Assembly (NCBI GenBank): GCA_947646735.1
Contig: CANTFK010000891.1
Location: forward strand, 124,001-188,000
Direction of reading: 5' to 3'
DNA: 64,000 nt
Source: Peronospora farinosa
Taxonomy: Eukaryota; Oomycota; Peronosporomycetes; Peronosporales; Peronosporaceae
The notes beneath the pieces are model-generated. The model was not told the DNA's origin. It searched no databases and saw nothing but the letters and a program-made list of their open reading frames with translations. Below, piece after piece: positions 33,266-64,000 of the stretch (positions within the stretch are counted from its first letter, which is position 1; each line of letters opens with the position of its first letter). The position numbers and the translations under genes are program-made.

Positions 33266-33675
33266 AAAAACTAGCGCCAAACTAACACGTTGGTCCCTCC
33301 CTGAGTCGAGCCCGAGGGTTCTACATAAGTTTTAAAAAAGGTTTCAATCGTAATCTGCAAACCAGCAACTGTGCCGCAGAAATGACAGTAGCGACAACTA
33401 AAAAGCCTATTCACGACGAGTTGATAGTGAAAAGCGTCTCGCATGCAGCCGAACTCTTCCAAGATCACAGTATCAACTCCGTGTGCTGAATGAAGCGACA
33501 TGAAAACTCATTGAGCGCGTCGGTATCATCCCAGCCAACGCGGTCGGCGATCGAGTTCGTTCATGGAGATGACACCGAACCCAATCCGCAGCAGATGCTG
33601 AATAGTTGCACATTCCGTGTGTCAGCAGCGCGGCGGTGATGTGGACTGCCCAGTGGCCAATACACGAAGAACACC

Positions 33676-33679
33676 AAAA
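33676..33679 (-). terminator. RNA polymerase III terminator (TTTT) after tRNA-His
   Basis: AAAA on the plus strand is TTTT on the transcribed strand, 12 bases beyond the 3' end of tRNA-His copy 1. The same four bases are kept 13-16 bp before every tRNA-His start in the window, including units where the neighbouring bases differ. Confidence 0.75.
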
Positions 33680-33691
33680 TAAGCATAAGAG

Positions 33692-33763
33692 TGCGCGTGC
33701 CCGGATTCGAACCAGGGATTTCACCGCCACAAGGTGAGGTACTGACCACTATACTACACACGC
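33692..33763 (-). tRNA. tRNA-His(GTG), copy 1
   Basis: A 72-nt cloverleaf. The acceptor stem GCGTGTG pairs with CACGCGC, and the discriminator is A. The anticodon stem is TCACC/GGTGA with loop TTGTGGC, giving GTG. The T arm is CCTGG-TTCGAAT-CCGGG, which also provides the internal B box. No encoded G-1 is assumed; it would be added after transcription as in other eukaryotes. No intron. Confidence 0.96.
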
Positions 33764-33764
33764 C

Positions 33765-33837
33765 TGGAGAAGCAGGGTATCGATCCCTGTACCTCTCGCA
33801 TGCTAAGCGAGCGCTCTACCATTTGAGCTACATCCCC
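33765..33837 (-). tRNA. tRNA-Ala(AGC), copy 1
   Basis: A 73-nt cloverleaf. Acceptor 5' strand GGGGATG faces CTTCTCC and includes the G3:U70 wobble pair that marks alanine tRNAs. The anticodon stem is CTCGC/GCGAG with loop TTAGCAT, giving AGC. The T arm is CAGGG-ATCGATA-CCCTG. The 3' end is one base from the 5' end of tRNA-His, so the two are probably cut from one pol III transcript. Confidence 0.96.
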
Positions 33838-34464
33838 AGATACCACGCTCACTCCAATGCCCACAACACATTTCATTACGGACGACTCACGCATCTCCAC
33901 GCTCTCCACCATGTACCACACTCATCCCGCTTCCGTCCCGTATCTTCTCTGCATGCCCCACGCCTCAGGATCCATATGCAAGCAATCTCGCCAAGCACAA
34001 AGTATTGTATGGTGTGTTTGTCCTTATTACCGCCTATCAAGCCTACCGTAGCTTGTACCGCTCGTTTGTGAGCTGCTCGTTTGCCAAAACTTTAGTCAGC
34101 GTGGGTAGAGACGGCATCAATCTTGGTCCACCAACCAGCAAGTGAGCCGCAGAAATGACAGTAGCGACAACTAAAAAGCCTATTCACGACGAGTTGATAG
34201 TGAAAAGCGTCTCGCATGCAGCAGAACTCTTCCAAGATCACAGTATCAACTCCGCGTGCTGAATGGAGCGACACGAAAACTCATCGAGCGCGTCGGTATC
34301 ATCCCAGCCAACGCGGTCGGCGATCGAGTTCGTTCATGGAGATGACACCGAACCCAATCCGCAGCAGATGCTGAATAGTTGCACAGTCCGTGTGTCAGCA
34401 GCGCGGCGGTGATGTGGACTGCCCAGTGGCCAATACAAGAAGAACACCAAAATAAGCATAAGAG
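33838..34464. repeat. Spacer of the 774-bp unit
   Basis: About 627 bp between tRNA pairs. No other RNA gene is recognised, and no 5S rRNA or snRNA. On the plus strand one frame runs through the whole 258-codon unit with only three stops, all TGA. It includes a hydrophobic stretch (HKVLYGVFVLITAYQAYRSL), but differences between copies are mostly amino-acid changing, so I see no evidence of coding constraint. Confidence 0.7.
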
Positions 34465-34536
34465 TGCGCGTGCCCGGATTCGAACCAGGGATTTCACCGC
34501 CACAAGGTGAGGTACTGACCACTATACTACACACGC
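34465..34536 (-). tRNA. tRNA-His(GTG), copy 2
   Basis: Identical to copy 1. Confidence 0.96.
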
Positions 34537-34537
34537 C

Positions 34538-34610
34538 TGGAGAAGCAGGGTATCGATCCCTGTACCTCTCGCATGCTAAGCGAGCGCTCTACCATTTGAG
34601 CTACATCCCC
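34538..34610 (-). tRNA. tRNA-Ala(AGC), copy 2
   Basis: Identical to copy 1. Confidence 0.96.
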
Positions 34611-35238
34611 AGATACCACGCTCACTCCAATGCCCACAACACATTCTCATTACGGACGACTCACGCATCGCCACGCTCTCCACCATGTACCACACTCATC
34701 CCGCTTCCGTCCCGTATCTTCTCTGCATGCCCCACGCCTCCGGATCCATATGCAAGCAATCTCGCCAAGCACAAAGTATTGTATGGTGTGTTTGTCCTTA
34801 TTACCGCCTATCAAGCCTACCGTAGCTTGTACCGCTCGTTTGTGAGCTGCTCGTTTGCCAAAACTTTAGTCAACGTGGGTGGAAACGGCATCAATCTTGG
34901 TCCACCAACCAGCAAGTGAGCCGCAGAAATGACAGTAGCGACAACTAAAAAGCCTATTCACGACGAGTTGATAGTGAAAAGCGTCTCGCATGCAGCAGAA
35001 CTCTTCCAAGATCACAGTATCAACTCCGCGTGCTGAATGGAGCGACACGAAAACTCATCGAGCGCGTCGGTATCATCCCAGCCAACGCGGTCGGCGATCG
35101 AGTTCGTTCATGGAGATGACACCGAACCCAATCCGCAGCAGATGCTGAATAGTTGCACATTCCGTGTGTCAGCAGCGCGGCGGTGATGTGGACTGCCCAG
35201 TGGCCAATACAAGAAGAACACCAAAATAAGCATAAGAG

Positions 35239-35310
35239 TGCGCGTGCCCGGATTCGAACCAGGGATTTCACCGCCACAAGGTGAGGTACTGACCACTATA
35301 CTACACACGC
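35239..35310 (-). tRNA. tRNA-His(GTG), copy 3
   Basis: Identical to copy 1. Confidence 0.96.
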
Positions 35311-35311
35311 C

Positions 35312-35384
35312 TGGAGAAGCAGGGTATCGATCCCTGTACCTCTCGCATGCTATGCGAGCGCTCTACCATTTGAGCTACATCCCC
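35312..35384 (-). tRNA. tRNA-Ala(AGC), copy 3, flanking LINE copy 1
   Basis: One change, at 35353: the anticodon loop reads ATAGCAT, so position 32 is A instead of T; the anticodon stays AGC. The gene is complete because its first 14 nt were duplicated when the LINE inserted right at its 5' end. Confidence 0.93.
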
Positions 35385-35481
35385 ACTTCTCAATTTGCCG
35401 GCTACCCCACAAGTCGACTCTTCAGAAGAACCCTCTCTCGCCCGCCGCTCCCGCCGCCCCCTCTGTCCAAGCTTTTCCGCT

Positions 35482-38280
35482 ATGTTCGCTCCCACGAATC
35501 CAACCTCGGCCACAGCTGCCAACCCAGCCAATGGCGCTCGTCATCATGGTTCCGGGAAAGAATCCAGTGAGAAGCCTGCCTCGTCTGTTCCCCCGTCGTC
35601 CTCAACCCATGGCTCTGACCAATCAGAAGCGTGGATTCGTGGAACGGGAGGGAACGGTTCGGTGTCGCAAGACTCTGAACCCACCCCAGGTTCAAGTGCA
35701 AGTTCAAGTTCAACGCGCGAAAATTTGGGATCTGGTTTTCAACCCACCCCAAGTTCAAGTTCAAGTCCAAGTGCAAGTGCAAGTGCAAGTGCAAGTCGAC
35801 CAAAATTGGGATCCGGTTCCGAACCCACCCCAACTGCAAGTTCAACTTGCAAACATTTGGGAAGTGATTTCGAAACTGGAGAAAATTCCAGCTTCAACCC
35901 ATCTTCGGATGGACTTCCAGGACTGGATGAAGCGACCACCCCAGGTGGTACTTTAACCGAGAATCCGCCTGACACCACCACTGACGATGGGGATGTCGTC
36001 ATGGTGGAAGGAGGTACTGTGGAAGCGCCAGCCGAAGACACACGTCCGACCATGGCCGAGCTGCTCCGGCAGCACGAACACCTCCGACGCGACCGAGCTG
36101 TGATCGAAGCAGCCCGCAAGCGCGTCGAGACCCCGAAGCCTCTTGCTGTGGACATCGAGGCGATTGAGCGCCAGTATGCTGCTGGTCACGACTGGTCGCT
36201 CATCGCTTCAAGAATGGAACAAGCGCGTCCCTATCAGCTACCGAGAGCCAAGTTTGACATGGTGATCGAGACTGGTAGAGCGCTTGCGAAGACTTCCGTC
36301 CACAAGATACTGGCGTCGCTTGCCGGTCCGGATCATGGAAACAGTGAGCTCGAAGAGCTGTACAAGCAATTCGAGATTGGCCAGATTTCCAAGATGCCGG
36401 GAGGCAACTTGCGCGTCAAGGTCAAGTCGAAAGAAGCCTGTGTGCGCTTGGAGCGCACCAAGGTGAATATCCTTGGAGGTGTGTTCACCTTCAAGGAGTT
36501 CGACATCCTTGGCGACAAGTACTACTTGGATATTTCCAATGTAGACTGCGACATGGATACGGATATGATCCTGCACCGACTGTTCCTTCTTGGATGCAAG
36601 CCGGTATACGACACCTTCCGTGAAGTGAACATGCCGACTGGAGTCACGTCTGCGACATGGCGGGTGTACTTCCTGTCGAGATCGTGCCCTCCAGCTTTGA
36701 TCATCAACAACTGTGTGTGTGATCAGCTGGTCTTCGACAACAAGCTTCATCCTGCTCACGGGAAAAATGCGCCGTTCAGCTCAGAGCGAATGCCATTTGG
36801 CTATCGCTCGCACCACGGAATCGATCTGGGCACGCAAGATAGCGTCTTTCCGCCACCTGAGCCTGCGTCCGAGCCAGATCGCCAGCAGCAGCAACAACAC
36901 CAGCAATACCAACAACCGAAGACGTACGCGCAAGCTGCGAATGCGAATGCGAATGCGAATGCGAAGCCCAAGCCGATGCCCAAACAAACCTCGCTGCAGA
37001 GGGCAGTCGAGGACGCGAAAAAACGGGAAGGTCAGCTCCAGAAAGGAGCTCAGCATGGCAAGCCACCCGCTGCCAATCAGCTCACCAAGCTTCAAGGAAG
37101 CAACTCGGATGCGCTCTCGATCTCGACGTTCAACGGATCCAACGGCAAGATCACTCCCCCAGGGAGTCCGAAAGCTACAGCCAAGCCGAAGCTGTTGTTG
37201 ACCACCGGAGCCAGCGATGGCTTCATCGATGCGTCCAACAAGAAGAAACGCGGCCGCAACGCGATCGACTTCTCCAACATGTTGGTGAAGCAGTCCACGC
37301 AGCCCTTGAATGGCATCGCCACCTCCAACTACTTTCAAGCGCTCCAGTCGATGGAGGTCAAGTTCGAATCGAAGAACTTGACTGCTGACAAACAGTATGG
37401 AGTCCGCTATCAGGTTGTCCCTGCGGATGTGAAGCGTCCCGACGAATTGAAGACCTCGACCGAGTCTGCTTTCTTCGTCGAGAAGCACCACACGAAGATC
37501 AAGAAAGCAGCAAAGGCGTCGCCGGTCCTCGAAGTGACCGAGGCGATGATCAACGACGAGAACACGGCGCTTCTCAACACCCTCCCTGACTGTCTTGCGA
37601 AAGCGGACAAGAAGGTCGACGGCGTGTGCAAGCTGCTCGAGAACGCCACGAATCCTGACCACATCACGAAGAAAGCGGTCGAGTGTCCGCTCGCCTTCAA
37701 CAGCGCATTGGCGTTGAAGATGGCTGGAAGCGGACACGAGATCGCAGAACTGGCGCAACTTCACGCGATCAACCGCGTGTTCTGTGCGACGCAGCCCAAT
37801 GAAGACACCACGTTCAGCACGAAGTGGAAGAAGCTGATGGGATCGGCAGTTCCGTCGAAGCGTAGCGACATTTTCAAGACGTGTGCGAAGTGGTGGACGT
37901 CGTCCGACTCGATCAAGGAGCTGTCTCGCTCGTCCAAGGCTTTGGGCATGTTCGAGCTCATGCTCATGTCGATCGCGCCGACGATCTTCAACAACGACCA
38001 CTGGATCCAGTACCTCACGGGTCAGCCCGTCGAGTGGATCCCAGCACACAACACGCGACTTCTCCACGTGAACACCCTCCTTCGTCTCTTGCGGTCCGAG
38101 CTCGGTGCGCACTGTATGCAGCAGTGGAGTGAAGTGCAGTGGCAAGGTCACCTTCTGGACGACCTCGAGTCGCTTCAGAAGCTTGACGGGTTCTACAAAG
38201 AAGACGCTTCGGTGTTGCAGCTTCAAGTCGTTGAAGGTGGAGTTGCGATGGTAGCGGGCGGATTGGCCACTCGTTGCTAA
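35482..38280 (+). CDS. LINE copy 1 ORF1 (gag-like nucleic-acid-binding protein)
   Basis: 932 residues from MFAPTNPTSA; the start is set by comparison with copy 2, because the longer upstream frame is not shared. The first 190 residues are Ser/Thr/Pro-rich and coded by AAGTTC/AAGTGC hexamer repeats. A globular part (about 250-440, including GGNLRVKVKSKEACVRLE and GGVFTFKEFDILGDKYYLD) has the alternating strand/helix look of an RNA-binding ORF1 domain, but I cannot name it. Gln- and Asn/Ala-repeat linkers follow, then a helical C-terminal half. No zinc knuckle is seen. The likely role is binding LINE RNA. Confidence 0.75.
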   Translation: MFAPTNPTSATAANPANGARHHGSGKESSEKPASSVPPSSSTHGSDQSEAWIRGTGGNGSVSQDSEPTPGSSASSSSTRENLGSGFQPTPSSSSSPSASASASASRPKLGSGSEPTPTASSTCKHLGSDFETGENSSFNPSSDGLPGLDEATTPGGTLTENPPDTTTDDGDVVMVEGGTVEAPAEDTRPTMAELLRQHEHLRRDRAVIEAARKRVETPKPLAVDIEAIERQYAAGHDWSLIASRMEQARPYQLPRAKFDMVIETGRALAKTSVHKILASLAGPDHGNSELEELYKQFEIGQISKMPGGNLRVKVKSKEACVRLERTKVNILGGVFTFKEFDILGDKYYLDISNVDCDMDTDMILHRLFLLGCKPVYDTFREVNMPTGVTSATWRVYFLSRSCPPALIINNCVCDQLVFDNKLHPAHGKNAPFSSERMPFGYRSHHGIDLGTQDSVFPPPEPASEPDRQQQQQHQQYQQPKTYAQAANANANANAKPKPMPKQTSLQRAVEDAKKREGQLQKGAQHGKPPAANQLTKLQGSNSDALSISTFNGSNGKITPPGSPKATAKPKLLLTTGASDGFIDASNKKKRGRNAIDFSNMLVKQSTQPLNGIATSNYFQALQSMEVKFESKNLTADKQYGVRYQVVPADVKRPDELKTSTESAFFVEKHHTKIKKAAKASPVLEVTEAMINDENTALLNTLPDCLAKADKKVDGVCKLLENATNPDHITKKAVECPLAFNSALALKMAGSGHEIAELAQLHAINRVFCATQPNEDTTFSTKWKKLMGSAVPSKRSDIFKTCAKWWTSSDSIKELSRSSKALGMFELMLMSIAPTIFNNDHWIQYLTGQPVEWIPAHNTRLLHVNTLLRLLRSELGAHCMQQWSEVQWQGHLLDDLESLQKLDGFYKEDASVLQLQVVEGGVAMVAGGLATRC

Positions 38281-41200
38281 ACCTTCCTCGACGTCACAAC
38301 CGACGTGGAGTAACATCAGTGTTCTGACTGTGAACACTAATGGCATCAAGAAGAATGGCCACCTATTTATCTAGAGCATGCTCTCCAAGTACTCAATGGC
38401 GTGCGTCCAAGAAACCAAGTTCGGCGACAGCACCCATCTTTCCAATTTCAAGTTCCACCTCGACTCGAGCTTCAAGCACAAGGTCTTCGTGGACGACCCC
38501 AACTCACAGCTGCATCGACCCACGCGAGGACGGAGCAATGGAGTGTTGACTGTGCTCCGCTCTGACTTCCCTGGCTTCGACTCGGCTGTTGAATTTCCAA
38601 GTCTGTCGGTTCCCGGACGCTACCTCGTCGTGAAAGTAATGGTTGAGAGTGCTCCCATCTACATTCATAACGTGTATGCGCCTGTGGACCGCCAAGAAAA
38701 GCAACAATTCTTCTCGAGCTTGGCAACCGAGGAGTTCGAAGATCAAGCGACGCATTTTGTGTTGGGCGATCTCAACACTCCCCTGGACCCGAGACTTGAT
38801 TCTTCCAACCCCGACTTGCGCTACGATCCCAGCCGGTCCAGTTGCCTCGAATGGTTGGCGAAGCTGGGTGTCGTCGATGCATGGCGGATCCACTTCGACA
38901 CCAAGCGTGTGTTCACTGGTCCTCTTCCTCGGAAGAATCGGCTGGACTACATCTTGCTGTCAGAGTCTTTCTACGACCGCTTCTACGACACCTCCAAGTA
39001 CTTCCTGCCGATGCATGCTGGAGACCACCTTGCTCACAGTGTGAGTTTCAGGTCTGGCTCGCAGCTGCATGGACGAGGGTACTGGAAGTTCCCCCGCTAT
39101 CTGCTGGAATACCCAGTGGTGGTGTCTGCGATCGAGAAAGAAGCCGAGCTGGTCCGAGACAAGCTACGCACCACGTCCAACCCAGGCAGGATCTGGGAGG
39201 AATGGAAGGCGAGCATCAAGACCCAACTCCAAGACGTGCAGAAGAAGCTCCGGATGCAAGACTCTCAAGCTGTCGAAGAAGCTCGCGTGCAGTTGGATCA
39301 AGCTGCGGCAAGGTATCGCACAGCAGGAAGCGATTCGAATCGAGACCACTTCGACGAAGCCATGAGGAACTATAAGGAGACGGTCACGCGGACGAGCCAA
39401 TACAACCAAGACACTGCATTCGACTTCCAAGCCGCCAACTCCGAGAAATCGACCAAGCACTTCTTCCGTCCGCTGGACACGAGCTTGAGACGAGTCTCGA
39501 TCGAAGAGGTGATGACACCGGGTGGAAGTGTCTCGACGAACCCTCACGAGATCTCTCTCCGCTTCCTGGAGCACTGGGGGTCCGAGATGGGAGACCCCAA
39601 CAGTCCGACAGGGAGAGCTCCTCCACCCGACGATGGCATGCAGCGCAAGCTTCTCGACTCGATTGTCTGCTTCGTCACGGAGACTGACCGTGCGATCTTG
39701 GACGCACCGGTCACTTCTTCGGACCTTGCGAGCGCGATCCGACACATGAAAGCGTCGTCAGCACCCGGCATGGACGGATTGACCGCTGGTTTCTACCAAG
39801 TGGCTCCGGACGTGTTCGGAGAGTGCTTGAGCATCGTGTTCAACGAACGTCTCAAGCGTGGCGTGCTGCTCCCGTCTCAGCGCAAGTCTGCAGTCGTGCT
39901 TCTGCACAAGAAGGGTTCGAGAGCAGAGCCTGGCAACTACCGACCCATCGCACTGGTGCAAGTCGATGTGAAGGTGCTGTCCAAGGCTCTGACGTATCGA
40001 CTCCAGCAAGTGATCGCCGACTTGATCCATCCCGACCAGAAGGGCTTCGTCAAGGGTCGCTCAATTCACCACCATGTGCGGTTCCTCGCGGACCTCCAAG
40101 ACTTGACAACGAGTCGCGATGAAGAAGCGTACGCGATGTTCTTGGACTTCCAGAAGGCGTTCGATCGAGTGAACTGGGACTACATGTTCCGGCTGCTCGA
40201 GCGAATGAGGTTCGGTTCAGAGTTTGCTCAGTGGATCAAGCTGCTGTACACCGACCCCCAAGCGCATCTTCTCATCAACCAGAACATCCAGCCTGCGCTG
40301 TTTCCGACACGAGGAGTGAAGCAAGGCGATCCGTTGTCTGCGCTGCTCTTCGTCTTGACCATCGAGCCGCTCGGCAACATGCTGCGTACGCACGAAGAGT
40401 ACGGAGTGTGTCTGAATGCAGACCACACGACGACGAGCACGTTCTTCGCGGACGACTCAACTCTGCTTGCGAGCTCGATACCGAACTTGCAGGCGCAGCT
40501 TGACACCGTGGATGAGTACTGCAAAGGCTCTGGCGCGAAGCTCAATCTGTCCAAGTCGACGCTGCTAGCACTAAATCGGAACCAGACCTGCCCTTCGCTC
40601 CCCGGAGTGCAAGTGCTGGGTCGTGCGGAGACGGTGAAGTACCTTGGCATCCCGTTTGGGCAGTCGTCGGTGGATGACGACCTCGTGGAGTTCCTCGAGC
40701 AGCGCTTCTACGACGGCTTCAAGATGTGGTACCGGCGCGCAAGGACGCTTCGTGGGCGACTTCTGGTCGCTCAAACGATGGTGCTCTCCCGCTTGTGGCA
40801 CTACACACAACATGTGTCAATCCCAGCAACAGTCGTGAAGCGATGGCAGTCGATGCTGAATCGGTTCGTGCTGAGTCGAAAGCACGACCGAGACGCGTCG
40901 TACATCCAGCTGATCCCAAGCGAGTTCCTGTATCAGCGACGGAGTGAAGGTGGTTTGGGAATCCCAAGCCTGGAAGCACATCTCAAGCGCCAGCGTCTTC
41001 AGCTGCTTCTGCAGTTCATACGGGCTGCGAGAGTGACGGAAGCGCGGAACTGGACGACAGCGAGCTGTGAGTTGCTCCAACTGGTTCTTCCTCGCACCGG
41101 TGGCTACAACGCACTCGACTTCCTCGTGGTCTCTCCACTCCGACATGGCGACATGATCAAGTGGAGACTGACTTCAACCTGGTGGAGAGCGACGTGGACG

Positions 41201-42409
41201 TGGTGGTACAAGATCCGGTGGGAAGTCACGTGGCAAGACCTTCCTTTTGAGGAGCGCGCTTGGTACGGTCTCCGACAGCCGATCTGGTTCCATTCGGATG
41301 CAGAGCTTCATTTCGAGCAGACTCCGCGGACTCACACCTGCGTGGCGCATCGGCGGTGCATTGGGATGGTGGTCGAGCCACAGCGGAGTTTCCGGCTGCA
41401 CGTGTCACGAGTCTTTGGTGTGCGGTCGCTCGTTGACTTCATGCGTGAAAGCTGTGCTTGGCCGTCGCAGCAAGATTTCGTCCAGCGCCACCTTGACTTC
41501 ACGCTTGCATCTGTCTCCCCTGGACAACAGGCAAAGTGGCTGCGAGTGTTGTACAAGGAAGCGACTCAGATCGTCGAGCGACTTGGCGCGACGCAGCTTG
41601 TTCTGCAGGCTTCGAGCAGTGCACGGCGACTTCTTCCCCATCTGGGTTGCAATAGCGACGCGAAGGTGTGCTTGATCCCAGCGATCCCGAGATCTGCGCT
41701 GCTGCGTGTGGTGTGGACGCCAAAACCACCGACGAAGCCACATCCGATGACTGTGCACTCGCAGCGAGTTGGCGACGAGCAGATCAAAGCGTACGTCAAG
41801 TTCAGCAAGCACCTGCGCAAGATCCTGCTCCCTGTGTTCGAAGATCTGCAGTTCCGCCTCGCGTTTCGACTCCTACCGGTTCGATCGCGGTTCTGGTTCC
41901 TGCAGCAGTCGAACCCACGCATCATATACTGCATCCGAGACAGGTGCGACGCAGTCGAGACAGAGCAGCACTTGTTCTTCGAATGTTCACTCGCGACAAG
42001 ACTGTGGGAACACTTTGGGAACATCATGGCGCCGTTCGTCCGATCTCAACTGACATGGGTCATGATAGCGACAGCAAGGAAACCAGTCGTGCGAGACGAA
42101 TGGAAGGAGTGTGAAGACATCATCGGAGATGTATGGCACACGCTCCGCGCGGTGACACTCCACTTCATCTGGTCCGACCGCAATCGGTGTCTGTTCGACG
42201 GAAGACAGCCCACACCGACGACATCAGCAACGATGGTCATCTTCACCACAGCCAGCGCGCACTTTCGGCACAACCTGAGGAGGCGCTACGATGACGATGA
42301 GAGCGCATCACTGGAGAAGGCGCTTATCAAGATGAGGAAGTATCCGCCTTTTGGAGATTTTGCAACGGCGCACCCCGCCATGTTCCCAGTCCGTCACCTC
42401 CAACAGTAG
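38255..42409 (+). pseudogene. LINE copy 1 ORF2 (endonuclease-RT) with nonsense codon
   Basis: Same layout as copy 2, but a TAG at 38372-38374 replaces the GAG codon at 58304 in copy 2, between the Asn and Glu motifs of the endonuclease. A 1343-residue frame remains from the ATG at 38378; it keeps VQETK onward but loses the VLTVNTNG strand carrying the first catalytic Asn. This would cripple the endonuclease, while the RT (FFADDS) stays intact. Confidence 0.88.
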
Positions 42410-54461: not shown

Positions 54462-54462
54462 C

Positions 54463-54535: not shown

Positions 54536-55163
54536 AGATACCACGCTCACTCCAATGCCCACAACACATTCTCATTACGGACGACTCACGCATCGCCACG
54601 CTCTCCACCATGTACCACACTCATCCCGCTTCCGTCCCGTATCTTCTCTGCATGCCCCACGCCTCCGGATCCATATGCAAGCAATCTCGCCAAGCACAAA
54701 GTATTGTATGGTGTGTTTGTCCTTATTACCGCCTATCAAGCCTACCGTAGCTTGTACCGCTCGTTTGTGAGCTGCTCGTTTGCCAAAACTTTAGTCAGCG
54801 TGGGTAGAGACGGCATCAATCTTGGTCCACCAACCAGCAAGTGAGCCGCAGAAATGACAGTAGCGACAACTAAAAAGCCTATTCACGACGAGTTGATAGT
54901 GAAAAGCGTCTCGCATGCAGCAGAACTCTTCCAAGATCACAGTATCAACTCCGCGTGCTGAATGGAGCGACACGAAAACTCATCGAGCGCGTCGGTATCA
55001 TCCCAGCCAACGCGGTCGGCGATCGAGTTCGTTCATGGAGATGACACCGAAACCAATCCGCAGCAGATGCTGAATAGTTGCACAGTCCGTGTGTCAGCAG
55101 CGCGGCGGTGATGTGGACTGCCCAGTGGCCAATACAAGAAGAACACCAAAATAAGCATAAGAG

Positions 55164-55235
55164 TGCGCGTGCCCGGATTCGAACCAGGGATTTCACCGCC
55201 ACAAGGTGAGGTACTGACCACTATACTACACACGC
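55164..55235 (-). tRNA. tRNA-His(GTG), copy 19
   Basis: Identical to copy 1. Confidence 0.96.
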
Positions 55236-55236
55236 C

Positions 55237-55309
55237 TGGAGAAGCAGGGTATCGATCCCTGTACCTCTCGCATGCTAAGCGAGCGCTCTACCATTTGAGC
55301 TACATCCCC
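55237..55309 (-). tRNA. tRNA-Ala(AGC), copy 19, flanking LINE copy 2
   Basis: Identical to copy 1 and kept whole by the target-site duplication; its 5' end abuts the LINE 5' end head to head. Confidence 0.96.
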
Positions 55310-55407
55310 ACTTCTCAATTTGCCGGCTACCCCACAAGTCGACTCTTCAGAAGAACCCTCTCTCGCCCGCCGCTCCCGCCGCCCCCCTCTGTCCAAGCTT
55401 TTCCGCT

Positions 55408-58212
55408 ATGTTCGCTCCCACGAATCCAACTTCGGCCACAGCTGCCAACCCAGCCAATGCCGCTCGTCATCATGGTTCCGGGAAAGAATCCAGTGAGAAG
55501 CCTGCCTCGTCTGTTCCCCCGTCGTCCTCAACCCATGGCTCTGACCAATCAGAAGCGTGGATTCGTGGAACGGGAGGGAACGGTTCGGTGTCGCAAGACT
55601 CTGAACCCACCCCAGGTTCAAGTGCAAGTTCAAGTTCAACGCGCGAAAATTTGGGATCTGGTTTTCAACCCACCCCAAGTTCAAGTTCAAGTCCAAGTGC
55701 AAGTGCAAGTGCAAGTGCAAGTGCAAGTCGACCAAAATTGGGATCCGGTTCCGAACCCACCCCAACTGCAAGTTCAACTTGCAAACATTTGGGAAGTGAT
55801 TTCGAAACTGGAGAAAATTCCAGCTTCAACCCATCTTCGGAGGGACTTCCAGGACTGGATGAAGCGACCACCCCAGGTGGTACTTTAACCGAGAATCCGC
55901 CTGACACCACCACTGACGATGGGGATGTCGTCATGGTGGAAGGAGGTACTGTGGAAGCGCCAGCCGAAGACACACGTCCGACCATGGCCGAGCTGCTCCG
56001 GCAGCACGAACACCTCCGACGCGACCGAGCTGTGATCGAAGCAGCCCGCAAGCGCGTCGAGACCCCGAAGCCTCTTGCTGTGGACATCGAGGCGATTGAG
56101 CGCCAGTATGCTGCTGGTCACGACTGGTCGCTCATCGCTTCAAGAATGGAACAAGCGCGTCCCTATCAGCTACCGAGAGCCAAGTTTGACATGGTGATCG
56201 AGACTGGTAGAGCGCTTGCGAAGACTTCCGTCCACAAGATACTGGCGTCGCTTGCCGGTCCGGATCATGGAAACAGTGAGCTCGAAGAGCTGTACAAGCA
56301 ATTCGAGATTGGCCAGATTTCCAAGATGCCGGGAGGCAACTTGCGCGTCAAGGTCAAGTCGAAAGAAGCCTGTGTGCGCTTGGAGCGCACCAAGGTGAAT
56401 ATCCTTGGAGGTGTGTTCACCTTCAAGGAGTTCGACATCCTTGGCGACAAGTACTACTTGGATATTTCCAATGTAGACTGCGACATGGATACGGATATGA
56501 TCCTGCACCGACTGTTCCTTCTTGGATGCAAGCCGGTATACGACACCTTCCGTGAAGTGAACATGCCGACTGGAGTCACGTCTGCGACATGGCGGGTGTA
56601 CTTCCTGTCGAGATCGTGCCCTCCAGCTTTGATCATCAACAACTGTGTGTGTGATCAGCTGGTCTTCGACAACAAGCTTCATCCTGCTCACGGGAAAAAT
56701 GCGCCGTTCAGCTCAGAGCGAATGCCATTTGGCTATCGCTCGCACCACGGAATCGATCTGGGCACGCAAGATAGCGTCTTTCCGCCACCTGAGCCTGCGT
56801 CCGAGCCAGATCGCCAGCAGCAGCAACAACACCAGCAATACCAACAACCGAAGACGTACGCGCAAGCTGCGAATGCGAATGCGAATGCGAATGCGAAGCC
56901 CAAGCCGATGCCCAAACAAACCTCGCTGCAGAGGGCAGTCGAGGACGCGAAAAAACGGGAAGGTCAGCTCCAGAAAGGAGCTCAGCATGGCAAGCCACCC
57001 GCTGCCAATCAGCTCACCAAGCTTCAAGGAAGCAACTCGGATGCGCTCTCGATCTCGACGTTCAACGGATCCAACGGCAAGATCACTCCCCCAGGGAGTC
57101 CGAAAGCTACAGCCAAGCCGAAGCTGTTGTTGACCACCGGAGCCAGCGATGGCTTCATCGATGCGTCCAACAAGAAGAAACGCGGCCGCAACGCGATCGA
57201 CTTCTCCAACATGTTGGTGAAGCAGTCCACGCAGCCCTTGAATGGCATCGCCACCTCCAACTACTTTCAAGCGCTCCAGTCGATGGAGGTCAAGTTCGAA
57301 TCGAAGAACTTGACTGCTGACAAACAGTATGGAGTCCGCTATCAGGTTGTCCCTGCGGATGTGAAGCGTCCCGACGAATTGAAGACCTCGACCGAGTCTG
57401 CTTTCTTCGTCGAGAAGCACCACACGAAGATCAAGAAAGCAGCAAAGGCGTCGCCGGTCCTCGAAGTGACCGAGGCGATGATCAACGACGAGAACACGGC
57501 GCTTCTCAACACCCTCCCTGACTGTCTTGCGAAAGCGGACAAGAAGGTCGACGGCGTGTGCAAGCTGCTCGAGAACGCCACGAATCCTGACCACATCACG
57601 AAGAAAGCGGTCGAGTGTCCGCTCGCCTTCAACAGCGCATTGGCGTTGAAGATGGCTGGAAGCGGACACGAGATCGCAGAACTGGCGCAACTTCACGCGA
57701 TCAACCGCGTGTTCTGTGCGACGCAGCCCAATGAAGACACCACGTTCAGCACGAAGTGGAAGAAGCTGATGGGATCGGCAGTTCCGTCGAAGCGTAGCGA
57801 CATTTTCAAGACGTGTGCGAAGTGGTGGACGTCGTCCGACTCGATCAAGGAGCTGTCTCGCTCGTCCAAGGCTTTGGGCATGTTCGAGCTCATGCTCATG
57901 TCGATCGCGCCGACGATCTTCAACAACGACCACTGGATCCAGTACCTCACGGGTCAGCCCGTCGAGTGGATCCCAGCACACAACACGCGACTTCTCCACG
58001 TGAACACCCTCCTTCGTCTCTTGCGGTCCGAGCTCGGTGCGCACTGTATGCAGCAGTGGAGTGAAGTGCAGTGGCAAGGTCACCTTCTGGACGACCTCGA
58101 GTCGCTTCAGAAGCTTGACGGGTTCTACAAAGAAGACGCTTCGGTGTTGCAGCTTCAAGTCGTTGAAGGTGGAGTTGCGATGGTAGCGGGCGGATTGGCC
58201 ACTCGTTGCTAA
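55408..58212 (+). CDS. LINE copy 2 ORF1 (gag-like protein)
   Basis: 934 residues, two more than copy 1 because of one extra AAGTGC hexamer (coding Ala-Ser) in the Ser-rich N-terminal region near 55690-55730. The rest is practically identical to copy 1, including the KVKSKEACVRLERTKVNILG block, the QQQQQHQQYQQP and NANANANA linkers, and the helical C-terminal part with KWWTSSDSIKELSRSSKALG. The last 26 nt overlap the ORF2 frame. Confidence 0.78.
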   Translation: MFAPTNPTSATAANPANAARHHGSGKESSEKPASSVPPSSSTHGSDQSEAWIRGTGGNGSVSQDSEPTPGSSASSSSTRENLGSGFQPTPSSSSSPSASASASASASRPKLGSGSEPTPTASSTCKHLGSDFETGENSSFNPSSEGLPGLDEATTPGGTLTENPPDTTTDDGDVVMVEGGTVEAPAEDTRPTMAELLRQHEHLRRDRAVIEAARKRVETPKPLAVDIEAIERQYAAGHDWSLIASRMEQARPYQLPRAKFDMVIETGRALAKTSVHKILASLAGPDHGNSELEELYKQFEIGQISKMPGGNLRVKVKSKEACVRLERTKVNILGGVFTFKEFDILGDKYYLDISNVDCDMDTDMILHRLFLLGCKPVYDTFREVNMPTGVTSATWRVYFLSRSCPPALIINNCVCDQLVFDNKLHPAHGKNAPFSSERMPFGYRSHHGIDLGTQDSVFPPPEPASEPDRQQQQQHQQYQQPKTYAQAANANANANAKPKPMPKQTSLQRAVEDAKKREGQLQKGAQHGKPPAANQLTKLQGSNSDALSISTFNGSNGKITPPGSPKATAKPKLLLTTGASDGFIDASNKKKRGRNAIDFSNMLVKQSTQPLNGIATSNYFQALQSMEVKFESKNLTADKQYGVRYQVVPADVKRPDELKTSTESAFFVEKHHTKIKKAAKASPVLEVTEAMINDENTALLNTLPDCLAKADKKVDGVCKLLENATNPDHITKKAVECPLAFNSALALKMAGSGHEIAELAQLHAINRVFCATQPNEDTTFSTKWKKLMGSAVPSKRSDIFKTCAKWWTSSDSIKELSRSSKALGMFELMLMSIAPTIFNNDHWIQYLTGQPVEWIPAHNTRLLHVNTLLRLLRSELGAHCMQQWSEVQWQGHLLDDLESLQKLDGFYKEDASVLQLQVVEGGVAMVAGGLATRC

Positions 58213-61200
58213 ACCTTCCTCGACGTCACAACCGACGTGGAGCAACATCAGTGTTCTGACTGTGAACACTAATGGCATCAAGAAGAATGGCCACCTATTT
58301 ATCGAGAGCATGCTCTCCAAGTACTCAATGGCGTGCGTCCAAGAAACCAAGTTCGGCGACAGCACCCATCTTTCCAATTTCAAGTTCCACCTCGACTCGA
58401 GCTTCAAGCACAAGGTCTTCGTGGACGACCCCAACTCACAGCTGCATCGACCCACGCGAGGACGGAGCAATGGAGTGTTGACTGTGCTCCGCTCTGACTT
58501 CCCTGGCTTCGACTCGGCTGTTGAATTTCCAAGTCTGTCGGTTCCCGGACGCTACCTCGTCGTGAAAGTAATGGTTGAGAGTGCTCCCATCTACATTCAC
58601 AACGTGTATGCGCCTGTGGACCGCCAAGAAAAGCAACAATTCTTCTCGAGCTTGGCGACCGAGGAGTTCGAAGATCAAGCGACGCATTTTGTGTTGGGCG
58701 ATCTCAACACTCCCCTGGACCCGAGACTTGATTCTTCCAACCCCGACTTGCGCTACGATCCCAGCCGGTCCAGTTGCCTCGAATGGTTGGCGAAGCTGGG
58801 TGTCGTCGATGCATGGCGGATCCACTTCGACACCAAGCGTGTGTTCACTGGTCCTCTTCCTCGGAAGAATCGGCTGGACTACATCTTGCTGTCAGAGTCT
58901 TTCTACGACCGCTTCTACGACACCTCCAAGTACTTCCTGCCGATGCATGCTGGAGACCACCTTGCTCACAGTGTGAGTTTCAGGTCTGGCTCGCAGCTGC
59001 ATGGACGAGGGTACTGGAAGTTCCCCCGCTATCTGCTGGAATACCCAGTGGTGGTGTCTGCGATCGAGAAAGAAGCCGAGCTGGTCCGAGACAAGCTACG
59101 CACCACGTCCAACCCAGGCAAGATCTGGGAGGAATGGAAGGCGAGCATCAAGACCCAACTCCAAGACGTGCAGAAGAAGCTCCGGATGCAAGACTCTCAA
59201 GCTGTCGAAGAAGCTCGCGTGCAGTTGGATCAAGCTGCGGCAAGGTATCGCACAGCAGGAAGCGATTCGAATCGAGACCACTTCGACGAAGCCATGAGGA
59301 ACTATAAGGAGACGGTCACGCGGACGAGCCAATACAACCAAGACACTGCATTCGACTTCCAAGCCGCCAACTCCGAGAAATCGACCAAGCACTTCTTCCG
59401 TCCGCTGGACACGAGCTTGAGACGAGTCTCGATCGAAGAGGTGATGACACCGGGTGGAAGTGTCTCGACGAACCCTCACGAGATCTCTCTCCGCTTCCTG
59501 GAGCACTGGGGGTCCGAGATGGGAGACCCCAACAGTCCGACAGGGAGAGCTCCTCCACCCGACGATGGCATGCAGCGCAAGCTTCTCGACTCGATTGTCT
59601 GCTTCGTCACGGAGACTGACCGTGCGATCTTGGACGCACCGGTCACTTCTTCGGACCTTGCGAGCGCGATCCGACACATGAAAGCGTCGTCAGCACCCGG
59701 CATGGACGGATTGACCGCTGGTTTCTACCAGGTGGCTCCGGACGTGTTCGGAGAGTGCTTGAGCATCGTGTTCAACGAACGTCTCAAGCGTGGCGTGCTG
59801 CTCCCGTCTCAGCGCAAGTCTGCAGTCGTGCTTCTGCACAAGAAGGGTTCGAGAGCAGAGCCTGGCAACTACCGACCCATCGCACTGGTGCAAGTCGATG
59901 TGAAGGTGCTGTCCAAGGCTCTGACGTATCGACTCCAGCAAGTGATCGCCGACTTGATCCATCCCGACCAGAAGGGCTTCGTCAAGGGTCGCTCAATTCA
60001 CCACCATGTGCGGTTCCTCGCGGACCTCCAAGACTTGACAACGAGTCGCGATGAAGAAGCGTACGCGATGTTCTTGGACTTCCAGAAGGCGTTCGATCGA
60101 GTGAACTGGGACTACATGTTCCGGCTGCTCGAGCGAATGAGGTTCGGTTCAGAGTTTGCTCAGTGGATCAAGCTGCTGTACACCGACCCTCAAGCGCATC
60201 TTCTCATCAACCAGAACATCCAGCCTGCGCTGTTTCCGACACGAGGAGTGAAGCAAGGCGATCCGTTGTCTGCGCTGCTCTTCGTCTTGACCATCGAGCC
60301 GCTCGGCAACATGCTGCGTGCGCACGAAGAGTACGGAGTGTGTCTGAATGCAGACCACACGACGACGAGCACGTTCTTCGCGGACGACTCAACTCTGCTT
60401 GCGAGCTCGATACCGAACTTGCAGGCGCAGCTTGACACCGTGGATGAGTACTGCAAAGGCTCTGGCGCGAAGCTCAATCTGTCCAAGTCGACGCTGCTAG
60501 CACTAAATCGGAACCAGACCTGCCCTTCGCTCCCCGGAGTGCAAGTGCTGGGTCGTGCGGAGACGGTGAAGTACCTTGGCATCCCGTTTGGGCAGTCGTC
60601 GGTGGATGACGACCTCGTGGAGTTCCTCGAGCAGCGCTTCTACGACGGCTTCAAGATGTGGTACCGGCGCGCAAGGACGCTTCGTGGGCGACTTCTGGTC
60701 GCTCAAACGATGGTGCTCTCCCGCTTGTGGCACTACACACAACATGTGTCAATCCCAGCAACAGTCGTGAAGCGATGGCAGTCGATGCTGAATCGGTTCG
60801 TGCTGAGTCGAAAGCACGACCGAGACGCGTCGTACATCCAGCTGATCCCAAGCGAGTTCCTGTATCAGCGACGGAGTGAAGGTGGTTTGGGAATCCCAAG
60901 CCTGGAAGCACATCTCAAGCGCCAGCGTCTTCAGCTGCTTCTGCAGTTCATACGGGCTGCGAGAGTGACGGAAGCGCGGAACTGGACGACAGCGAGCTGT
61001 GAGTTGCTCCAACTGGTTCTTCCTCGCACCGGTGGCTACAACGCACTCGACTTCCTCGTGGTCTCTCCACTCCGACATGGCGACATGATCAAGTGGAGAC
61101 TGACTTCAACCTGGTGGAGAGCGACGTGGACGTGGTGGTACAAGATCCGGTGGGAAGTCACGTGGCAAGACCTTCCTTTTGAGGAGCGCGCTTGGTACGG

Positions 61201-62341
61201 TCTCCGACAGCCGATCTGGTTCCATTCGGATGCAGAGCTTCATTTCGAGCAGACTCCGCGGACTCACACCTGCGTGGCGCATCGGCGGTGCATTGGGATG
61301 GTGGTCGAGCCACAGCGGAGTTTCCGGCTGCACGTGTCACGAGTCTTTGGTGTGCGGTCGCTCGTTGACTTCATGCGTGAAAGCTGTGCTTGGCCGTCGC
61401 AGCAAGATTTCGTCCAGCGCCACCTTGACTTCACGCTTGCATCTGTCTCCCCTGGACAACAGGCAAAGTGGCTGCGAGTGTTGTACAAGGAAGCGACTCA
61501 GATCGTCGAGCGACTTGGCGCGACGCAGCTTGTTCTGCAGGCTTCGAGCAGTGCACGGCGACTTCTTCCCCATCTGGGTTGCAATAGCGACGCGAAGGTG
61601 TGCTTGATCCCAGCGATCCCGAGATCTGCGCTGCTGCGTGTGGTGTGGACGCCAAAACCACCGACGAAGCCACATCCGATGACTGTGCACTCGCAGCGAG
61701 TTGGCGACGAGCAGATCAAAGCGTACGTCAAGTTCAGCAAGCACCTGCGCAAGATCCTGCTCCCTGTGTTCGAAGATCTGCAGTTCCGCCTCGCGTTTCG
61801 ACTCCTACCGGTTCGATCGCGGTTCTGGTTCCTGCAGCAGTCGAACCCACGCATCATATACTGCATCCGAGACAGGTGCGACGCAGTCGAGACAGAGCAG
61901 CACTTGTTCTTCGAATGTTCACTCGCGACAAGACTGTGGGAACACTTTGGGAACATCATGGCGCCGTTCGTCCGATCTCAACTGACATGGGTCATGATAG
62001 CGACAGCAAGGAAACCAGTCGTGCGAGACGAATGGAAGGAGTGTGAAGACATCATCGGAGATGTATGGCACACGCTCCGCGCGGTGACACTCCACTTCAT
62101 CTGGTCCGACCGCAATCGGTGTCTGTTCGACGGAAGACAGCCCACACCGACGACATCAGCAACGATGGTCATCTTCACCACAGCCAGCGCGCACTTTCGG
62201 CACAACCTGAGGAGGCGCTACGATGACGATGAGAGCGCATCACTGGAGAAGGCGCTTATCAAGATGAGGAAGTATCCGCCTTTTGGAGATTTTGCAACGG
62301 CGCACCCCGCCATGTTCCCAGTCCGTCACCTCCAACAGTAG
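58187..62341 (+). CDS. LINE copy 2 ORF2: AP endonuclease, reverse transcriptase, zinc-finger tail
   Basis: Open from 58187 (after a TAG at 58184) to the stop at 62341, in the +1 frame relative to ORF1. Counting from the GTG at 58262 as residue 1, the endonuclease has VNTNG, VQETK (Glu near 28), NVYAPVD, LGDLNTPLD (near 146), RLDYILL and GDHLAHS (near 230), all the expected catalytic blocks. The RT spans about 500-780, with NYRPIALVQVDVKVLSKAL, GVKQGDPLSALLF and FFADDS (near 707). Near residue 1205 CDAVETEQHLFFEC matches the zf-RVT type Cys/His motif. No RNase H domain is seen. The first ATG comes only after the VLTVNTNG strand, so translation probably starts at a non-AUG codon, by re-initiation, or by frameshift from ORF1. 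Confidence 0.9.
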   Translation, partial: RADWPLVAKPSSTSQPTWSNISVLTVNTNGIKKNGHLFIESMLSKYSMACVQETKFGDSTHLSNFKFHLDSSFKHKVFVDDPNSQLHRPTRGRSNGVLTVLRSDFPGFDSAVEFPSLSVPGRYLVVKVMVESAPIYIHNVYAPVDRQEKQQFFSSLATEEFEDQATHFVLGDLNTPLDPRLDSSNPDLRYDPSRSSCLEWLAKLGVVDAWRIHFDTKRVFTGPLPRKNRLDYILLSESFYDRFYDTSKYFLPMHAGDHLAHSVSFRSGSQLHGRGYWKFPRYLLEYPVVVSAIEKEAELVRDKLRTTSNPGKIWEEWKASIKTQLQDVQKKLRMQDSQAVEEARVQLDQAAARYRTAGSDSNRDHFDEAMRNYKETVTRTSQYNQDTAFDFQAANSEKSTKHFFRPLDTSLRRVSIEEVMTPGGSVSTNPHEISLRFLEHWGSEMGDPNSPTGRAPPPDDGMQRKLLDSIVCFVTETDRAILDAPVTSSDLASAIRHMKASSAPGMDGLTAGFYQVAPDVFGECLSIVFNERLKRGVLLPSQRKSAVVLLHKKGSRAEPGNYRPIALVQVDVKVLSKALTYRLQQVIADLIHPDQKGFVKGRSIHHHVRFLADLQDLTTSRDEEAYAMFLDFQKAFDRVNWDYMFRLLERMRFGSEFAQWIKLLYTDPQAHLLINQNIQPALFPTRGVKQGDPLSALLFVLTIEPLGNMLRAHEEYGVCLNADHTTTSTFFADDSTLLASSIPNLQAQLDTVDEYCKGSGAKLNLSKSTLLALNRNQTCPSLPGVQVLGRAETVKYLGIPFGQSSVDDDLVEFLEQRFYDGFKMWYRRARTLRGRLLVAQTMVLSRLWHYTQHVSIPATVVKRWQSMLNRFVLSRKHDRDASYIQLIPSEFLYQRRSEGGLGIPSLEAHLKRQRLQLLLQFIRAARVTEARNWTTASCELLQLVLPRTGGYNALDFLVVSPLRHGDMIKWRLTSTWWRATWTWWYKIRWEVTWQDLPFEERAWYGLRQPIWFHSDAELHFEQTPRTHTCVAHRRCIGMVVEPQRSFRLHVSRVFGVRSLVDFMRESCAWPSQQDFVQRHLDFTLASVSPGQQAKWLRVLYKEATQIVERLGATQLVLQASSSARRLLPHLGCNSDAKVCLIPAIPRSALLRVVWTPKPPTKPHPMTVHSQRVGDEQIKAYVKFSKHLRKILLPVFEDLQFRLAFRLLPVRSRFWFLQQSNPRIIYCIRDRCDAVETEQHLFFECSLATRLWEHFGNIMAPFVRSQLTWVMIATARKPVVRDEWKECEDIIGDVWHTLRAVTLHFIWSDRNRCLFDGRQPTPTTSATMVIFTTASAHFRHNLRRRYDDDESASLEKALIKMRKYPPFGDFATAHPAMFPVRHLQQ

Positions 62342-62549
62342 CCACTGCTCCTGCGTCTATTCACACACATCGGAATCATCCACACTCGCACATCACGCAA
62401 GAAACAACTTGCACGCTATTCCCAAGAAACATGAAACATAGCAACTGTACAGTATATTTATTAGAAAAACAGCAGTAGTTTCTATACATAGCTAGGTAGA
62501 TTGAGTAGTCACTTCGTCTAAATTCTAGTAATATAGACAACCTTTCAAC

Positions 62550-62563
62550 TGAGCTACATCCCC
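62550..62563 (+). repeat. Target-site duplication, right side of LINE copy 2
   Basis: TGAGCTACATCCCC, identical to 55296-55309. Confidence 0.93.
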
Positions 62564-63191
62564 AGATACCACGCTCACTCCAATGCCCACAACACATTCT
62601 CATTACGGACGACTCACGCATCGCCACGCTCTCCACCATGTACCACACTCATCCCGCTTCCGTCCCGTATCTTCTCTGCATGCCCCACGCCTCCGGATCC
62701 ATATGCAAGCAATCTCGCCAAGCACAAAGTATTGTATGGTGTGTTTGTCCTTATTACCGCCTATCAAGCCTACCGTAGCTTGTACCGCTCGTTTGTGAGC
62801 TGCTCGTTTGCCAAAACTTTAGTCAGCGTGGGTAGAGACGGCATCAATCTTGGTCCACCAACCAGCAAGTGAGCCGCAGAAATGACAGTAGCGACAACTA
62901 AAAAGCCTATTCACGACGAGTTGATAGTGAAAAGCGTCTCGCATGCAGCAGAACTCTTCCAAGATCACAGTATCAACTCCGCGTGCTGAATGGAGCGACA
63001 CGAAAACTCATCGAGCGCGTCGGTATCATCCCAGCCAACGCGGTCGGCGATCGAGTTCGTTCATGGAGATGACACCGAAACCAATCCGCAGCAGATGCTG
63101 AATAGTTGCACAGTCCGTGTGTCAGCAGCGCGGCGGTGATGTGGACTGCCCAGTGGCCAATACAAGAAGAACACCAAAATGAGCATAAGAG

Positions 63192-63263
63192 TGCGCGTGC
63201 CCGGATTCGAACCAGGGATTTCACCGCCACAAGGTGAGGTACTGACCACTATACTACACACGC
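63192..63263 (-). tRNA. tRNA-His(GTG), copy 20
   Basis: Identical to copy 1. Confidence 0.96.
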
Positions 63264-63264
63264 C

Positions 63265-63337
63265 TGGAGAAGCAGGGTATCGATCCCTGTACCTCTCGCA
63301 TGCTAAGCGAGCGCTCTACCATTTGAGCTACATCCCC
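63265..63337 (-). tRNA. tRNA-Ala(AGC), copy 20
   Basis: Identical to copy 1. Confidence 0.96.
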
Positions 63338-63965
63338 AGATACCACGCTCACTCCAATGCCCACAACACATTCTCATTACGGACGACTCACGCATCGCCA
63401 CGCTCTCCACCATGCACCACACTCATCCCGCTTCCGTCCCGTATCTTCTCTGCATGCCCCACGCCTCAGGATCCATATGCAAGCAATCTCGCCAAGCACA
63501 AAGTATTGTATGGTGTGTTTGTCCTTATTACCGCCTATCAAGCCTACCGTAGCTTGTACCGCTCGTTTGTGAGCTGCTCGTTTGCCAAAACTTTAGTCAA
63601 CGTGGGTAGAGACGGCATCAATCTTGGTCCACCAACCAGCAAGTGAGCCGCAGAAATGACAGTAGCGACAACTAAAAAGCCTATTCACGACGAGTTGATA
63701 GTGAAAAGCGTCTCGCATGCAGCAGAACTCTTCCAAGATCACAGTATCAACTCCGCGTGCTGAATGGAGCGACATGAAAACTCATCGAGCGCGTCGGTAT
63801 CATCCCAGCCAACGCGGTCGGCGATCGAGTTCGTTCATGGAGATGACACCGAACCCAATCCGCAGCAGATGCTGAATAGTTGCACAGTCCGTGTGTCAGC
63901 AGCGCGGCGGTGATGTGTACTGCCCAGTGGCCAATACACGAAGAACATTAAAATGAGCATAAGAG

Positions 63966-64000
63966 TGCGCGTGCCCGGATTCGAACCAGGGATTTCACCG
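63966..64000 (-). tRNA. tRNA-His(GTG), copy 21 (partial, window edge)
   Basis: Only the 3' half (acceptor 3' strand, T arm and part of the anticodon arm) lies in the window; what is visible equals copy 1. Confidence 0.93.

Follow-up and report, generated by a model that had tools for sequence, protein, structure and literature searches.

A 64,000-nucleotide stretch of the genome of the oomycete Peronospora farinosa (GenBank assembly GCA_947646735.1, contig CANTFK010000891.1, positions 124,001 to 188,000 of the forward strand; hereafter the window) carries a tandem array of transfer RNA (tRNA) genes, tRNA-Ala(AGC) paired with tRNA-His(GTG), which is interrupted by two copies of a long interspersed nuclear element (LINE) and by one element resembling a short interspersed nuclear element (SINE), each beginning at the first nucleotide of a tRNA-Ala gene. 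The tandem array is genuine and its units are homogenised; other tRNA arrays accompany it in the genome, and it adds a further member to a kind already published for oomycetes. The newer part is the insertion of a LINE and a SINE at the tRNA start, rather than the array itself. Judged from sequence, these elements very probably form a 'safe harbour' LINE/SINE pair, similar in habit to the TRE5 and R2 elements, that exploits such arrays. The assembly comprises 46.85 Mb in 274 contigs, of which that containing the window is called C235 here, and all target counts given below are of LINE and SINE copies in this one assembly.

Elements inserted at the 5' end of tRNA-Ala

Full, uninterrupted units of the array within the window are 773–775 bp long and 99–100% identical to a reference unit (window 47422–48195). 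Unit spacing breaks three times, to 8,021, 1,067 and 8,028 bp, always at the 5' end of tRNA-Ala. A first-pass annotation of this DNA had described the period as constant, which holds for the uninterrupted units but not across these three breaks, because mobile elements occupy 35386–42617, 45728–46006 and 55311–62549; about 14.75 kb of the 30.65 kb that it had assigned to the array consists of inserted elements and not of array. Each insert falls between unit positions 147/148 and 134, with 14–15 bases repeated on both sides.

The first LINE, a non-LTR retrotransposon (that is, one without long terminal repeats, LTRs), lies on the plus strand at 35385/35386..42617, head-to-head with the tRNA-Ala of the third pair (35238..35385, minus strand); its first base, an A at 35385, also precedes the tRNA in an empty unit. 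It is bounded by target-site duplications at 35371..35384 (tRNA-Ala nucleotides 1–14) and 42618..42631. Two open reading frames (ORFs) are encoded on the plus strand, ORF1 (35395..38280, 961 amino acids as listed, start codon uncertain) and ORF2 (38378..42409, 1343 amino acids), and the 3' end (42576..42617) is predicted to form an imperfect hairpin followed by an 11-nucleotide tail ending in AAC. The second copy (55310/55311..62549, plus strand) abuts the tRNA-Ala of pair 19 (55163..55310, minus strand) and has duplications at 55296..55309 and 62550..62563, an ORF1 of 934 amino acids (55408..58212, plus strand) and an ORF2 of 1359 amino acids (58262..62341, plus strand). Shortly before the listed ORF2 start copy 1 has an in-frame stop, where copy 2 is open; overall the copies differ by 11 substitutions in 7,232 aligned positions.

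In both copies ORF2 contains the Pfam domains Exo_endo_phos and RVT_1, and thus encodes an endonuclease of the apurinic/apyrimidinic endonuclease (APE) type joined to a reverse transcriptase; among relatives of solved structure human LINE-1 ORF2p scores best (E 1e-59) and R2 lower (4e-24). ORF1 has no Pfam match in either copy. Among 120 of 135 ORF2 protein matches listed, the top match is a JGI protein (92% identity), Globisporangium splendens reaches 85%, relatives at 70–85% identity belong by name to Globisporangium, Peronospora and one taxon beginning 'Plasmo', and further matches to Peronospora, Phytophthora, Lagenidium and Aphanomyces.

The third insert (45728..46006, plus strand, 279 bp) adjoins the tRNA-Ala of pair 7 (45581..45727, minus strand), and its left target-site duplication (45714..45727) has one mismatch against the right copy (46007..46020). 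It is a SINE-like element, being short, flanked by a target-site duplication and present in several near-identical copies; A- and B-box-like motifs can be seen by eye, and its 3' end is also predicted to form a hairpin and tail. We had considered that the two 7.2-kb inserts and the 279-bp insert were an LTR retrotransposon and its solo LTR. This was ruled out because the long inserts have no terminal repeats when compared with themselves, share no stretch with the 279-bp insert, and encode an endonuclease-reverse transcriptase.

Target site, mechanism and recent movement

The same target recurs throughout the assembly. The exact 17-base 3' end of the LINE occurs at 18 sites (control, 0) and is followed at 17 of these by TGAGCTA and at the other by a version with one mismatch; this word is the antisense of TAGCTCA, nucleotides 8–14 of the tRNA, in the A box. 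The 5' end word occurs at 16 sites, all exact with one mismatch allowed (control, 1), and 15 are preceded by TGAGCTA plus 7–8 bases, which are the antisense of tRNA nucleotides 1–7 wherever the tRNA is known. Insertion is therefore at one exact site with a target-site duplication, the target word standing beside 18/18 3' ends and 15/16 5' ends; the junction sequence was read for 15 of these 3' ends, and on both sides for part of the copies. The tRNA genes that ARAGORN finds directly beside a LINE 5' end are Ala (twice, in the window), Lys, Thr, Cys and a second Cys (locus L046), and Phe and Trp are probable further targets, judging by the bridging letters together with a neighbouring tRNA or A-box matches.

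The SINE-like element obeys the same rule. It has 18 matches in the genome (17 candidates, all scored), of which 16 extend to its 3' end and all 16 run on into TGAGCTA, one with one mismatch; the remaining two are truncated by a contig end or partial. It adjoins Ala, Lys, Cys, Thr and Phe genes. A second LINE family, 70–73% identical to the first, shares this site at all five of its 3' ends that were read, and serial insertions (SINE-LINE and LINE-LINE) are found on contigs C240, C248 and C56.

At the junctions read, the duplication covers tRNA nucleotides 1–14, its limit being ambiguous by about one base at some targets. There, the tRNA next to the 5' end of the element is complete, a 14-nucleotide remnant lies past the 3' end of the element, and element and tRNA are divergently oriented. 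Since the element begins at tRNA nucleotide 1 and nucleotides 1–14 are duplicated, the tRNA stays whole. By analogy with target-primed reverse transcription, the LINE endonuclease would nick the tRNA-sense strand after nucleotide 14, the nicked 3' end would prime reverse transcription, the second strand would be cut at the tRNA start, and SINE RNA would borrow the LINE machinery via its 3' end. We propose that the elements are tolerated by the host because insertion spares the target gene and further copies of it are in reserve. The last 42 nucleotides of LINE family 1, LINE family 2 and the SINE-like element all have a predicted fold of an 8–9-pair hairpin with a 10–11-nucleotide tail ending in AAC, although there is little letter identity between the 3' ends of the SINE-like element and the LINEs.

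Nine copies of LINE family 1 differ from one another at 0–3 of 2,018 positions (1,754 for the copy at L052) and occupy at least five different tRNA 5' ends; a tenth copy compared, on C56, shows about 432 differences. As the nine are near-identical despite their different targets, LINE movement has been recent. The two window copies might instead descend from one insertion that was duplicated along with 10.7 kb of array, for positions 33360–44068 and 53284–64000 align as one block at 99.5% with the element at the same offset. We regard this as unlikely, if not negligibly so. The elements differ at 11 of 7,232 positions and their flanks at 32 of 3,477 (p 2e-8), and each of the four nearest full flanking units is closest to some unit other than its counterpart (the unit at 34464 is closest to that at 48970, 54389 to the C49 unit at 11409, 43259 to 44033, and 63191 to 53615); near-identical LINE copies also sit in quite different tRNA genes. 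Separate insertions at the two positions thus appear more likely, given that flanks differ more than elements and the nearest units are not mutual closest relatives.

Several observations weigh against a targeted LINE/SINE pair of this kind. One of the 16 LINE 5' ends (C220:229520-229535) has no TGAGCTA where the word would be expected; of the other 15, at least three (C56:14012, C240:84490 and C248:625397) adjoin a short remnant that another element left behind and not a whole tRNA; and at locus L060 ARAGORN recognises no tRNA gene beside the 5' end. DNA relatives from other species were not found in the viral and genome contig sets. The tRNA origin of the SINE-like element would rest on motifs seen by eye, and its head has no tRNA match in Rfam even at E values up to 5. 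In the last 42 nucleotides the hairpin of family 1 is weak (-3.9 kcal/mol) and imperfectly paired; when the last 69–70 nucleotides are considered a larger fold is favoured in LINE family 1 and the SINE, and in shuffle tests on that length 3.7%, 0.7%, 1.3%, 4.7% and 1.3% of 300 shuffles folded as well. That the SINE may be mobilised by the enzyme of the LINE is a suggestion drawn from the similarity of these predicted 3' ends. Finally, gene conversion of the flanks could mimic the result of the flank comparison.

The Ala/His array and its place in the genome

In the window ARAGORN identifies 40 tRNA genes, forming 20 His(GTG) and Ala(AGC) pairs, all on the minus strand between 33691 and 63338, and all 40 score 53.4–59.9 bits against the Rfam tRNA model RF00005, for which the cut-off is 29. 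Twenty full pairs and one partial, normal tRNA folds and a continuation past the window had been described in the first-pass annotation, and each of these is borne out. The 21st pair is cut by the window end, beyond which C235 carries the array for a further 10,550 bases to the contig end at 198550, and by RF00005 none of the 40 window genes resembles a pseudogene, all being far over the cut-off and functional in appearance. The left edge of the array is a partial unit (33344..33690, minus strand, unit positions 428–774 in the unit alignment, 96% identical). Besides the three already given, the pairs called by ARAGORN and RF00005, all on the minus strand, are pairs 1 and 2 at 33691..33838 and 34464..34611; pairs 4 to 6, between the first LINE and the SINE-like element, at 43259..43406, 44033..44180 and 44807..44954; pairs 8 to 18 at 46648..46795, 47422..47569 (pair 9, in the reference unit), 48196..48343, 48970..49117, 49744..49891, 50519..50666, 51293..51440, 52067..52214, 52841..52988, 53615..53762 and 54389..54536; and pair 20 at 63191..63338. 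The start of pair 21, also on the minus strand, occupies 63965..64000, and the pair is completed beyond the window (L032). According to Rfam coordinates one nucleotide separates Ala from His, which lies downstream, and a run of four T occurs a little way past His and is absent between the two genes. The short gap and the position of the T-run make it likely that both genes are transcribed together as one dicistronic RNA polymerase III (Pol III) transcript.

A second contig, C49, also bears an Ala/His array, giving 34 complete pairs on C235 and 8 on C49, or 42 in total, of which 33 match the reference exactly over 147 bp (deviants: 3 on C235 and 6 on C49). The C49 array starts at a tRNA-Ala 5' end (L035:1-60, C49:134001) beside unrelated DNA, with a tRNA-Glu array about 7.5 kb away. 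An alignment of 37 uninterrupted units (30 from C235 and 7 from C49) has 30 variable columns, 1 of 147 in the tRNAs and 29 of 629 in the spacer (Fisher p 0.029). Among full C235 units, successive neighbours differ at 4.0 positions on average and all pairs at 11.6, in agreement with the concerted evolution suggested in the earlier annotation; unequal crossing-over and gene conversion would keep the units alike. Towards the end of C235 unit identity falls to 95–97% and lengths mostly alternate between about 763 and about 773 bp, as might be expected from amplification of unit pairs by unequal exchange. Two of the element-flanked genes, tRNA-Ala 35312–35384 and 45655–45727, carry one substitution each and score 53.4 and 53.7 bits; the other tRNA-Ala genes mostly score 57.0, and one 56.2. 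Of the 3 element-flanked pairs on C235, 2 deviate, against 1 of 31 others, a post hoc comparison to be read as a hint only, and relaxed constraint on element-flanked tRNA-Ala genes (2/3 substituted) is possible.

Both array contigs end inside the array, as is typical of unresolved repeats, which raises the question of whether a few real units have been inflated by misassembly. This is hardly credible in view of the ordered differences among units, including the drift towards diverged units of alternating length near the contig end, and of the consistent duplications around the inserts; for the arrays of P. infestans, moreover, the portion of PMC9584435 available to us reports tRNA copy numbers confirmed by read depth. 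Alternatively, the 774-bp unit might be a mobile element in its own right, SINE-like and expanding by transposition, as proposed for P. effusa clusters in PMC11540230, which, in the available part, terms 717-bp tRNA units SINE-like owing to their rapid expansion, and a few partial copies of the unit do lie elsewhere, on C5 and C13. We consider this very improbable. The units are arranged head-to-tail without duplications between neighbours, and full-length units are confined to the C235 and C49 arrays among the matches returned (31 of 33 candidates scored, counts being lower bounds); the tRNAs score 53–60 bits and vary less than the spacer; a separate element with its own target-site duplications sits within the array; and the discussion in PMC11540230, as far as available, holds the P. 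effusa elements to be probably not mobile and attributes their variation to recombination.

The partial copies have features of their own. On C13 (L037:2408-2517 and L038:1845-2069) a tRNA-Ala is accompanied by the 5' half only of tRNA-His, in inverted copies about 9.4 kb apart, and in two of three copies the break in His coincides with the position that ends a primer-like 37-bp stretch described below. On C5 (L039:4700-5223) a solitary partial unit is joined, at its tRNA-Ala 5' region, to an LTR-like end, and an LTR element may also have used tRNA-Ala there. To the left of the array, the gene-bearing part of the window has degenerate 20–21-bp tandem repeats rich in GTCGACC (23762–24140 and 25633–25755) and, about 3 kb from the array, a reverse transcriptase/RNase H gene fragment (29598–30389), probably from an LTR element.

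Other tRNA arrays are present. In a search with the tRNA model 63 of 2,736 candidates were scored, all exceeding the cut-off, so that a genome census of tRNAs is not possible. C49 holds five tRNA-Glu genes at 392–393 bp spacing, C184 six tRNA-Ala at 758–797 bp, C229 tRNA-Lys at 1,170 bp and C247 tRNAs partly at 179 bp; C248 has Ser, Thr and Trp genes in close proximity. Among 100 of 173 A-box pattern places listed, C74 has at least 53 matches at 776–777 bp (tRNA type not assigned) and C198 at least 31 tRNA-Phe matches at about 594 bp. In the listed part of C198 the spacing widens to 872–887 bp five times, and all five wide gaps contain a SINE match (starting at 9016, 11688, 13752, 22358 and 23244). 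Matches of 37 bp on C36, mostly at 4-kb spacing, suggested a second tRNA-His array, a candidate that was rejected as ARAGORN finds no tRNA-His in 40 kb. Stretches of 36–37 bp identical to the 3' half of tRNA-His occur on C36 (L040-L043) and at single places on C119, C120, C266, C247 and others, and in the three C36 copies read an LTR-like end precedes the stretch. Placed thus after an LTR-like end, the 37-bp stretches on C36 look like primer-binding sites; our guess is that they stop at tRNA nucleotide 37 because the reverse transcriptase, copying the primer tRNA, could not pass a modified base.

The first-pass annotation named a structural, boundary or subtelomeric role besides tRNA supply as possible, and the array might be kept for a structural, boundary or nuclear-organising role in place of tRNA supply. 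For the arrays of P. infestans, the accessible part of PMC9584435 leaves open a part in chromatin or nuclear organisation, of the sort shown for yeast tRNA genes. We found no evidence of such a role here, and it is distinctly unlikely to be why the array is kept. The motif TTTAGGG, the proposed oomycete telomere repeat (PMC11139960, consulted in part), has 288 + 207 overlapping matches in the assembly (controls, 0), which like the named ORF2 relatives supports an oomycete origin, but paired repeats of it are absent from the 74.55 kb of C235 examined, leaving a subtelomeric position of the array without support; tRNA columns, furthermore, vary less than the spacer. Elsewhere, at C22:94439-105043, TTTAGGG blocks recur at about 5.2-kb spacing among the matches listed.

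Relation to known arrays and tRNA-targeting elements

The first-pass annotation knew of no tandem tRNA array in oomycetes, a view contradicted by two published reports, both of which we cite from partial text. In P. infestans tRNA genes number in the thousands and form tandem arrays, some with dimeric units, and read depth was used to check the copy numbers (PMC9584435); P. effusa has 33–39 tRNA clusters per isolate (PMC11540230). These arrays resemble the present one in their near-identical tandem units (513–850 nucleotides and 717 bp, respectively), which may be mono-, di- or trimeric, and in being several per genome, and the P. infestans trimer of Thr, Trp and Ser (PMC9584435) recalls the genes close together on C248. 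The array described here likewise has canonical tRNAs in head-to-tail, near-identical units, and arrays of different tRNAs accompany it. It differs in its Ala-His dimer, and the portions of the two papers available mention no LINE or SINE insertions at the tRNA start. PMC9584435 interprets such arrays as tRNA genes spread by unequal crossing-over and PMC11540230 as SINE-like, so far as their available text goes; the present array fits the former. Entamoeba arrays also consist of tandem units of several tRNAs, but contain intergenic short tandem repeats (PMC2652664, in part), whereas Tandem Repeats Finder reports none within units here, the LINE copies alone containing reported repeats.

Among mobile elements, the TRE5 elements of Dictyostelium and NLTR-A are, like ours, LINEs that target tRNA genes from upstream; TRE5 is oriented opposite to the tRNA, and TRE5-A has two ORFs with the APE and reverse transcriptase in ORF2 (PMC5911963 and PMC5006619, as far as accessible). 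According to the same sources, TRE5 inserts 40–54 bp and NLTR-A 2–6 bp upstream, whereas the LINE here starts at tRNA nucleotide 1, duplicates nucleotides 1–14 and lacks an oligo(A) tail. TRE5 targeting operates through the Pol III factors TFIIIB and TFIIIC. R2 disrupts the 28S gene, whereas the present LINE leaves its target gene whole. In other respects R1 and R2 are comparable, as site-specific LINEs that live among the tandem copies of an essential RNA gene (PMC3706591, available in part, and general background). Utopia of oomycetes, NeSL-1_TV, LIN15_SM and LIN25_SM are also site-specific LINEs in multicopy small RNA genes, U2 arrays of Phytophthora among them, but they use a restriction-like endonuclease and target U2 or one tRNA type, where ours has an APE and several tRNA types (PMC4640811, partial text). 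Many families of Dada DNA transposons hit tRNA nucleotides 8–13, TAGCTC in Perkinsus families, with a DDE transposase and 6–7-bp duplications in place of APE-reverse transcriptase and 14-bp duplications (PMC8869645 and PMC3706591, in the parts accessible), and zebrafish Dewa lies in a tRNA-Leu spacer (PMC3706591, likewise). Dada and the LINE described here have converged independently on the same A-box site. An oomycete APE-type LINE/SINE pair inserting exactly at nucleotide 1 of several tRNA genes, each of which it leaves intact, was not found in the open-licence literature searched, which excluded Repbase and subscription papers.

These results bear on the dispute over whether the thousands of oomycete 'tRNA genes' are arrays, as in the P. 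infestans paper, or SINE-like, as in the P. effusa paper. In P. farinosa both coexist and are distinguishable: the array unit has near-invariant tRNAs and lacks duplications, and target-site duplications mark the SINE-like element. A LINE of APE type that inserts at a fixed base of several different tRNA genes and leaves them intact is of interest for harmless targeted integration. Since Globisporangium and Peronospora both supply named ORF2 relatives, public assemblies allow the targeting to be checked. Mutual support of parasite and array has been proposed for R2 and ribosomal DNA. A wider but rather unlikely possibility is that oomycetes harbour a community of LINEs and SINEs on the A-box word TAGCTCA, in which nicking of the arrays would feed unequal exchange, such that parasite and array would sustain each other. 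If this were true, any tRNA gene with TAGCTCA could be colonised without loss of the tRNA, and nicking would keep the arrays large and uniform.

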